A DNA stretch of 64,000 nt from Caldithrix abyssi DSM 13497 (lineage in GTDB: Bacteria; Calditrichota; Calditrichia; Calditrichales; Calditrichaceae): contig NZ_CP018099.1 of NCBI RefSeq assembly GCF_001886815.1, positions 4,462,501-4,526,500 of the forward strand, given 5' to 3'. The notes under the pieces are model-generated. The model saw nothing but the letters and a program-made list of their open reading frames with translations. It did not search any database and was not told the origin of the DNA. A program made the translations under genes and the position numbers. Below, piece by piece: positions 4,565 to 21,781 of this stretch. The first letter of the stretch is position 1. Each line of letters starts with the position of its first letter.

Positions 4565-5793
4565 AAGCTCATTTTAGAAACGATTAAATTTTTTAACGAT
4601 TGCGCCGGACTGTAATCGGGCTTCAGGTTCAGGGCCTTGTTGCAATCGGCCAGGGCTTTTGGGAAATCTTGCAAATCGAAATAGGTGAGGGCGCGCATGT
4701 GGTAGCCCTCGTGCTGGTAGGCGTCAATTTCCAGTGAATGACCGAAATCTTTTAAGGCAAGATCGTATTTCTTTAACATTCGGTAAGCCAATCCACGATT
4801 ATTCAACGCTCTCAGATTCTGGGAATCGAATTTGTAAGCCTGGGTAAAATCTTTAATGGCTTTTTCGTATTCGCCCAGAACAAAATAAGCCATGCCCCGA
4901 TGGTTGTAAACAATGGAACGGATGGCCGGTTTGAGCTTTTGCCTTAGCAGTTGCGAGTAAATTTGGATGGCCTTGGGAAACTGTTGTTTACTGTGAGCCT
5001 CCAGCGCCTCAAACAATTGCTTTTCAACGCTCGATTTAGAAATAATGGCCGCCGGCAGATCGATTTCTTCAAAGGCGCTGTGACCGTTCCCGGGAATAAC
5101 CGAACCGTTTGGCAGCAGAATCTTTTGCGTCATGGTGTAGTCGCACTTTTCGCGCAGGGTTTTAATGGCCTTCTGGTAATCGCGAATTTCCTGAAAAATA
5201 ATGTCGCTTAATGTCAACGTGGCGTTTAATGATGCCAGTTTTCGTTTGATCGGCTCGTTTAACATGGTAAAGTTGGCCTTATAAATCAACTCGTGCTCCA
5301 CTTCGGCCCAGGCATCCTGCAAAATGGTTCGCAGCTGCAGTTCACAGGTGCGGCCGCTGTACGGAATAAAGCCATTAAACTGATCTTCCGGCAGTTCAAT
5401 GGTCAAATGGATGGATTCGTAGCTGAATTCATTAATCGGTTTTCCCGCGCTTTTGTGTTCAATTTCAATGACCTTAAAATGACTGCGGATGATGGATTCA
5501 ACATATTCAATATCTTCCAGAAAAGGGCAAATAATCCGCATGCCAATTAAGTCGTTAATGATGATGGGATTAACCTCCTTTTGACGATAGCGAATCAGTT
5601 TCTGGAAGTAGCTGTCAAACGATTTTAAGCGATATTTGATGTTAAAGTTGATGTCGGTTTTAATTAACAGTTTGCGCACCTGACGGTACAGACGATTTAA
5701 ATTGTTTTCGTAATCGTGGCGGTAGCGTTCATAAAGGATTAAGAGCCGCTGGCGTTCGGAGACGGAAGGTTTTAATTGAATGCCGCTTTCCAT
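4561..5793 (-). CDS. RelA/SpoT-type alarmone synthetase with C-terminal TPR repeats
   Basis: 410 residues. The synthetase domain covers about residues 20-210: RLKSFDSYFQK (55-65), NDLIGMRI (80-87, metal site), SYESIHL (124-130) and ELQLRTILQDAWAEVEHELIYK spread over 151-172. There is no HD hydrolase domain, so it should make, not degrade, (p)ppGpp. Residues about 265-405 are TPR repeats (GMAYFVLGEYEKAIKDF; GLAYRMLKKYDLALKDF; ALTYFDLQDFPKALADC), probably a protein-binding or regulatory module. AAAGGAGCC precedes the ATG. The residues are typical of the family; activity is inferred. Confidence 0.85.
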   Translation of the reverse strand: MESGIQLKPSVSERQRLLILYERYRHDYENNLNRLYRQVRKLLIKTDINFNIKYRLKSFDSYFQKLIRYRQKEVNPIIINDLIGMRIICPFLEDIEYVESIIRSHFKVIEIEHKSAGKPINEFSYESIHLTIELPEDQFNGFIPYSGRTCELQLRTILQDAWAEVEHELIYKANFTMLNEPIKRKLASLNATLTLSDIIFQEIRDYQKAIKTLREKCDYTMTQKILLPNGSVIPGNGHSAFEEIDLPAAIISKSSVEKQLFEALEAHSKQQFPKAIQIYSQLLRQKLKPAIRSIVYNHRGMAYFVLGEYEKAIKDFTQAYKFDSQNLRALNNRGLAYRMLKKYDLALKDFGHSLEIDAYQHEGYHMRALTYFDLQDFPKALADCNKALNLKPDYSPAQSLKNLIVSKMSF

Positions 5794-19996: not shown

Positions 19997-20575
19997 TTAC
20001 ATTTCTAATTTGATTTCGCTGCAGATCACAAAATTGTTCAAATCGCTCCGTTTGATTTTCATGTATGTGTCAATCACCCCTTCAAAATCCCCTTCAATTT
20101 CACCTTTGGCTCTAAAAATGTATTCGTGCAGCGGGGCGTAACTTTCAAAACCTTTTGCATCCTTCTCAATAATTTCCGAGGGTGTGTAATTCTTTAGCGA
20201 AACGCCTTCCGGCAGATGTTCAACGATTTGTTTAAAGCTGCTTCCCATATCTTTTTCGAAAATTTCAGCGGCAAACGAAAAAGCAGCGCCTTTAATTGGT
20301 TTGATCGATTTAATAACGTAACCTGTTTTTTTGGTGTAAAGATCGACCACCTGTTTAAAAGGTTCGATCAGTTCGTCTTCCAGACAAAGGTGTACGTAAT
20401 TTTCCAGTTCAAAGAGTTCTTTAACAAATTCTTTCAACGTCTCTCGTCGAATGTTTTCTTTTCGATGGAAAAAATATTTTCCTTTCGGCTTTTTACAGGC
20501 CAAAAAACCCAATAAAAATCCTTTTACCATCATAAAAGGGCCTTCAATAACAATTTCTGAAAACTTTCTTCCCAT
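19997..20575 (-). CDS. Hypothetical protein, 192 aa
   Basis: The ATG at 20575 is chosen because GGAGGAATGT precedes it; the frame is open four codons further. The N-terminus is MGRKFSEIVIEGPFMMVKGF, with no signal peptide. The rest is a soluble alpha/beta protein rich in Glu and Lys. No family is recognised with certainty. It is a single gene between a repeat and the divergent DUF1573 gene. Confidence 0.65.
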   Translation of the reverse strand: MGRKFSEIVIEGPFMMVKGFLLGFLACKKPKGKYFFHRKENIRRETLKEFVKELFELENYVHLCLEDELIEPFKQVVDLYTKKTGYVIKSIKPIKGAAFSFAAEIFEKDMGSSFKQIVEHLPEGVSLKNYTPSEIIEKDAKGFESYAPLHEYIFRAKGEIEGDFEGVIDTYMKIKRSDLNNFVICSEIKLEM

Positions 20576-20746
20576 ACATTCCTCCATCGTTGCTAATTTT
20601 CATTAATAAATTAAAAAGGTTTCTCTAAAAAACAAATACTATTTCATGATAATCGTAAAGATTTTACATTTGTTTAAAAAATATCTTGATCTTTCTGCTT
20701 ATTCTTTTAAATTGAAACCAGGAAAATTAAAAGAAGGGGCTGAAAG

Positions 20747-21160
20747 ATGAGGCCATATAACACATTTCTCTTCATTTTATTGATTTTGGGCGTCGTTCAG
20801 ATCAGTAATTTAAACGCTCAGGACAGCACAAAGGTCAGCGGGCCTGTTATTACAGCTTCGGAAAAGGTGTTTGATTTTGGTCAGGTGCCGGAAAATGCCG
20901 TGGTCTCTCATGTTTTTGTGCTGAAAAATCAGGGCAGCGATAGCTTAAGAATTCAACGTATTAAAAGCGGCTGAGGCTGCACAGCAGCGCTTCTGAGTTC
21001 AGAAGTCATTGCCCCGGGAGACAGCGTGCAGCTTAAGGCTTCTTTTAACACGCACAACCGTTCAGGCACGTTCCAGAAGAACATTCGCGTTTATTCCAAT
21101 GCCGTTAATCAGCGCGTATTAACCTTAACCATAAAAGGCGAAATTATTCGAGAAGATTGA
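20747..21160 (+). CDS. DUF1573 family exported selenoprotein with in-frame UGA (UGC motif)
   Basis: 137 residues if TGA at 20972-20974 is selenocysteine (residue 76). Conventional calling stops there at 75 residues, but the frame continues with no stop to 21160. Residues 1-24 (MRPYNTFLFILLILGVVQIS...) are a signal peptide. FDFGQVPENAVVSHVFVLKNQG is the DUF1573 strand pattern. IKSGUGCTAALLSSEVIAPGDS aligns with the family motif SCGCTAA, so U replaces the first Cys. YSNAVNQRVLTLTIKGEI closes the domain. A hairpin CTTCTG-AGTT-CAGAAG begins 16 nt after the UGA. Exported MsrB follows, which suggests a redox role in the envelope. A nonsense mutation is the alternative. Confidence 0.9.
20990..21005 (+). 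promoter_or_regulatory. Candidate bacterial SECIS hairpin of the DUF1573 gene
   Basis: CTTCTG-AGTT-CAGAAG, a perfect 6-bp stem with GU in the loop, starts 16 nt after the UGA. Spacing and loop are nearly the same as in the SelW-like gene of this window. Confidence 0.7.
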
Positions 21161-21274: not shown

Positions 21275-21781
21275 ATGTTGCGAATTATTTTAAGTTTACT
21301 GTTCATCACAGTCATTTACGGACAAAATCAGGAAAGCAAGGCAATGCGTTCAAAGGACGACTCTTCAAAAACCAGCGGCCACAAAGTGTTTAAAACGGAC
21401 GCCGACTGGCAATCGTGTTTGACGCCCGAGCAATTTTATGTTACCAGAAAAAAGGGGACGGAACGCCCTTTTAGCGGCAAATATTACGACTACTGGGAAG
21501 AAGGCACGTACCTGTGCGTGGCCTGCGGCGCAGAGCTCTTTTCTTCAAGCACCAAATACCATTCCGGAAGCGGCTGGCCCAGCTTCTGGGATGTGGCCAG
21601 CGAAGAAAATGTGATCCTTGAAAAAGATACCAGCCTGGGAATGGTGCGCACGGAAATACTTTGTGCTTCCTGCGGTGCACATCTGGGGCACGTTTTTGAT
21701 GACGGACCGCCGCCCACCGGGCTGCGCTATTGCATCAATTCTGCCGCCTTGAAGTTTGTGCCTAAAAATTTAAAAAAATAA
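21275..21781 (+). CDS. msrB: Exported peptide-methionine (R)-S-oxide reductase
   Basis: 168 residues from the ATG at 21275, preceded by ACGGAGTAATC. An upstream start at 21200 would lengthen it but spoil the signal peptide ([19 protein letters not shown]). The two CxxC zinc pairs are at about residues 81-84 (CVACG) and 129-132 (CASCG). The catalytic Cys is in RYCINSAAL near residue 152, with GSGWPSFW and [10 protein letters not shown] also present. It reduces Met-R-sulfoxide in exported proteins. Unlike some MsrBs it uses Cys, not Sec. It lies 114 bp after the DUF1573 selenoprotein gene. Confidence 0.93.

Follow-up and report, generated by a model that had tools for sequence, protein, structure and literature searches.

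Selenoproteins with a DUF1573 domain, named OS_HP2 and carrying a UGC motif, have been in the literature since 2007–2008. The entry "DUF1573 domain-containing protein, pfam07610, UGC" is listed as a selenoprotein (PMC9312934, PMC13188914), OS_HP2 is given as pfam07610 with a UxC motif (PMC2398784), and the DUF1573 UGC selenoprotein is credited to Zhang and Gladyshev 2007 by a paper that cites them (PMC13188914). NCBIfam also holds a family of this kind, NF041425 (OS_HP2_seleno). The original prediction for the 64,000-nucleotide stretch of DNA analyzed here (the window) had stated that its author knew of no described DUF1573 selenoprotein family; these sources describe one. Because the family has already been described, we present the gene at 20747–21160 (+) as a new, well-supported branch and not as a new kind of selenoprotein: What is new is the Calditrichota-type Sec clade together with a SECIS of its own and, in 4 of 14 neighborhoods, an adjacent exported methionine sulfoxide reductase B (MsrB).

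The gene shares with OS_HP2 the DUF1573 domain and Sec in place of the leading Cys of CGC (giving UGC), and its Sec codon lies at the same position as in the Desulfobacterota members that we read. It differs in having one domain and 137 aa, whereas Desulfobacterota OS_HP2 frames mostly span 230–430 aa, and in a SECIS of another register and sequence than the Desulfobacterota hairpin. The read-through product scores 81.3 bits against NF041425 (5e-23), under the curated cut-off of 100 bits, and all 12 relatives match this model at E ≤ 0.001 (best 2.1e-23); thus, the protein is related to the curated subfamily but falls outside it. Cys-type DUF1573 proteins (PF07610), for example in Ignavibacteria, Desulfuromonadales, and Aminicenantes, carry CGCTAALLS at the same place with about 30–46% identity, and they have Cys in place of Sec and lack the SECIS hairpin. 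Across 395 genomes from the phylum of one Desulfuromonadales homologue, 147 had a match at 1e-15, and most over-cut-off matches among the matches listed carry one TGA, at the same codon where read. DUF1573 selenoproteins are very common in that sample, sometimes with several copies per genome, and many of its TGA-bearing matches score below the NF041425 cut-off.

The in-frame TGA and the read-through product

The frame opens with ATG at 20747 and runs through 75 codons, a TGA at 20972–20974 (+), and 61 sense codons to a stop TGA at 21158–21160. Mechanical ORF calling ends the gene at the first of these TGA codons, as had been predicted, after 75 residues; the predicted continuation of the frame also stands, although its quoted length of 62 codons had included the stop. 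The internal TGA (residue 76) falls where the CGCT motif begins, at a position that is Cys in the aligned Cys homologues. An in-frame UGA aligned with a Cys that is conserved in homologues is one of the patterns by which bacterial selenoproteins are recognized, and it agrees with the proposed replacement of Cys by Sec in the CGC motif. In a Pfam search, the read-through protein matched PF07610 (DUF1573) over the full profile (1–98 of 98) at 1.7e-28, with 99 bits against a gathering cut-off of 26.1. When each half was searched, the part before the TGA corresponded to profile positions 1–40 and the part after it to positions 43–98. These stretches of the profile are neighbors, so the domain is completed across the TGA, as originally claimed. 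Truncation at 20972–20974 would lose more than half of the domain.

Sec-type orthologues, which form a branch scoring under the curated NCBIfam cut-off, number 15 in 40 genomes of the phylum (the window's included) and come from at least 12 genera. All 15 carry TGA at the identical codon, in one alignment column. Sequence identity in the half of the gene that follows the TGA equals or exceeds that in the preceding half, with pN below pS. We weighed these data against a pseudogene or sequencing error, in which the TGA would truncate a decaying gene. The sole point for such a reading is that a standard gene caller stops at the TGA, while the recurrence of this TGA across 15 genomes, together with purifying selection at least as strong on the downstream half, led us to reject it as having a negligible chance of being correct. 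The original prediction had itself named a TGA unique to this gene, followed by a decaying downstream part, as grounds for abandoning it; neither was found. The selenoprotein reading restores the full length of a gene that would be halved by automatic annotation.

Viral contigs gave neither relatives nor the combination of TGA and hairpin, and a first scan of a species-genome collection with the single protein gave no match. The pattern used in a second scan of that collection demanded Cys, so only Cys homologues could be returned. As a check on this bias, searches that read through stops were run, and they found no TGA among the Bacteroidota matches listed (178 genomes with a match) and none in seven genomes of the phylum of L043, a Cys homologue discussed below.

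The SECIS hairpin and the selenocysteine machinery

Selenocysteine insertion in bacteria is directed by a hairpin (bSECIS) whose model specifies a stem of 4–16 bp, a loop of 3–9 nt with G in the first two loop positions, and a distance of 16–37 nt from the UGA to the loop (PMC13188914). The hairpin CTTCTG-AGTT-CAGAAG at 20990–21005 (+), which begins 16 nt 3' of the TGA exactly where it had been predicted, falls within these bounds, with 6 bp, the loop AGUU (G at position 2), and 21 nt from UGA to loop. Its consensus, CTYCTG-AGTT-CAGRAG, lies in one register at the same distance from the TGA in 15 of 15 Sec genes. The hairpin is complete (6/6 pairs) in 14 of them, has 5/6 pairs in the remaining one, and is complete in none of 132 Cys homologues (for 14/15 versus 0/132, Fisher p 1.1e-18, which is indicative at most because the rows are related). 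This is a clean contrast between Sec and Cys homologues, with the SECIS hairpin present only where Sec is.

Codon usage follows the hairpin as well. The codons inside it are CTT/CTC, CTG, AGT, TCA, and GAA/GGA, with CTG, AGT, and TCA each used in all 15 Sec genes, and its two serines are drawn without exception from different codon boxes (AGT and TCA). Invariant residues just outside the hairpin, by comparison, use several codons, and of the 22 Cys homologues that encode LLSS, none does so with the hairpin codons of the Sec genes. The covariation that the original prediction had proposed to look for was found at one stem pair, where three genomes carry C-G in place of U-A, both partners having changed; the other five of the six pairs are invariant or nearly so. 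There, CTC stands in place of CTT and GGA in place of the paired GAA, which replaces Glu with Gly. Since the 3' change alters the protein, the RNA pairing has been kept despite a protein change. Folding energy was dropped as evidence, since it does not set the local hairpin apart (z –1.7 for 45 nt, within a range of only –1.1 to –3.8). It is the conservation of the hairpin, not its folding energy, that exceeds chance.

Three Cys homologues from the phylum of L043, namely L043 itself (4959–5321), L256, and L258, have GAGTTC where the hairpin would be (CTTTTGAGTTCGACAG, CTTTTGAGTTCAATGG), with incomplete pairing; one tree makes them the sister group of the Sec clade. The retained GAGTTC may be a relic of a SECIS after a change from Sec to Cys, a precursor of one, or chance.

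The genome, a single contig of 4,978,541 bases, holds selA (491 bits), selB (367 bits), selD, and tRNA-Sec (73.6 bits, anticodon TCA). Absence of selB or tRNA-Sec, which had been named in advance as evidence against Sec, is thus not what we observed. One selD has its own in-frame TGA in SCSG-U-ASK, followed by its own hairpin. There are two selD genes (G000:C1:612354–613277 and G000:C1:3157233–3158168); one lies in a TGA-free frame of 738 aa, longer than SelD alone, and the other is an ordinary selD with the in-frame TGA.

A first search of relatives recovered an orthologue with an internal TGA in 12 of 20 genomes, and all 12 had selB or tRNA-Sec over the cut-off. In six genomes of one family of the same order, neither component passed the cut-off and the orthologue was absent. 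The gene is thus found in 12 of 14 genomes with Sec machinery and 0 of 6 without (91/125970, ~7e-4 by simple counting, the genomes being related). In four draft genomes that have the Sec gene (G006, G003, G005, and G019), one of the two, either selB or tRNA-Sec, fails to reach the cut-off, and assembly gaps are the probable cause.

These observations bear on the possibility that the UGA is read as another residue through near-cognate suppression, or that the short product is real and the hairpin regulatory. A hairpin just 3' of the UGA could in principle aid ordinary read-through. Such readings nevertheless leave aside that homologues have Cys at the exact position (a classic Sec/Cys pair), that the gene is missing from relatives without Sec machinery, that the hairpin fits the bSECIS model, and that a short product would forfeit most of the domain; we consider them very improbable. 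We conclude from the conserved TGA, the conserved SECIS, the Sec machinery, and the whole domain, all of them sequence evidence, that 20747–21160 almost certainly functions as a DUF1573/OS_HP2-type selenoprotein gene. In the mechanism that we propose, SelB on the bSECIS hairpin would bring Sec-tRNA(UCA) to the UGA at 20972, and translation would yield an exported protein of 137 aa with one Ig/PapD-like domain.

Origin of the Sec form

In a maximum-likelihood tree, the Calditrichota-type Sec clade sits among Cys homologues, apart from Desulfobacterota OS_HP2, with support of 98/86 for the Sec clade and 99/85 for the node that joins it to Cys rows; a second tree gave weaker values (88/85 and 90/65). 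An AU test of a single Sec group gave p 0.021 with Sec rows only and p 0.33 when the two nested Desulfobacterota Cys rows were added, so an independent gain of Sec is favored by the tree at most. A shared origin with the Desulfobacterota OS_HP2 selenoproteins, or transfer from them, is compatible with the latter test and with the frequency of Sec in the family in the Desulfobacterota sample. Against this stand the placement of the clade in both trees and the differing register and sequence of the hairpin in the two Sec groups, and we judge a shared or transferred origin a serious possibility, somewhat short of an even one. In the tree, two Cys rows (L204 and L206) are nested among the Desulfobacterota Sec proteins and look like reversions from Sec to Cys.

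Modeled fold, probable export, and neighborhood

Read by eye, the first ~25 residues (20747–20821, +) form a signal peptide, MRPYNTFLFILLILGVVQISNLNA-Q, with cleavage near LNA|Q. Q25 is invariant in 12 of 12 aligned rows, following a hydrophobic stretch, and the region is a low-confidence helix in the structure model. These features agree with the predicted export of the selenoprotein, and we infer that the 137-aa protein is exported. The protein is modeled (pLDDT 88) as an Ig-like sandwich, with U76-G77-C78 placed between strands 67–74 and 79–83. Neither the model nor the fold comparison showed a thioredoxin fold or similarity; the nearest folds were HYDIN PapD-like 2e6j and P. gingivalis 2qsv, and the protein resembles the HYDIN/CFA65/VesB-like Ig domain (PF22544) in fold and, weakly, in sequence. 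Such domains are best known as structural (PapD-like/ASH) domains, and to our knowledge a Sec motif is no feature of them. What stands out here is a probably exported selenoprotein that is built on an Ig-like and not a thioredoxin fold.

Sec76-Gly77-Cys78 would sit in a turn between two β strands, where Sec76 and Cys78 could form a reversible selenenylsulfide, making this a redox protein outside the cytoplasm without the thioredoxin fold. From the UGC motif alone, we put an extracytoplasmic redox role at about an even chance. Alternatively, the UGC could bind a metal or metalloid rather than cycle a selenenylsulfide, as an Ig-like fold without thioredoxin similarity and a closely spaced selenol and thiol might suggest. 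The 12-row alignment holds no other conserved residues that are likely ligands (His, Cys), and the neighborhoods no conserved metal-resistance genes. We consider metal binding less likely than not, though a real possibility.

Downstream of the selenoprotein gene lies an exported MsrB (SelR) of the Cys type (21275–21781, +; PF01641, 7.5e-52), and three relatives have the same arrangement. A functional link between the two is possible but weakly supported. The fuller picture, in which Sec was gained independently and the redox function is that of a one-domain, exported, Ig-fold selenol partner, possibly for the neighboring MsrB, is one we hold to be improbable as a whole. Only MsrB, a MATE-like transporter (four neighborhoods, named by eye), and a few other genes recur, and we therefore rejected a conserved, fixed operon. 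The divergent neighbor at 19997–20587 (–) encodes 196 aa, matches no Pfam family, and is kept upstream of the Sec gene in two relatives (G002 and G003).
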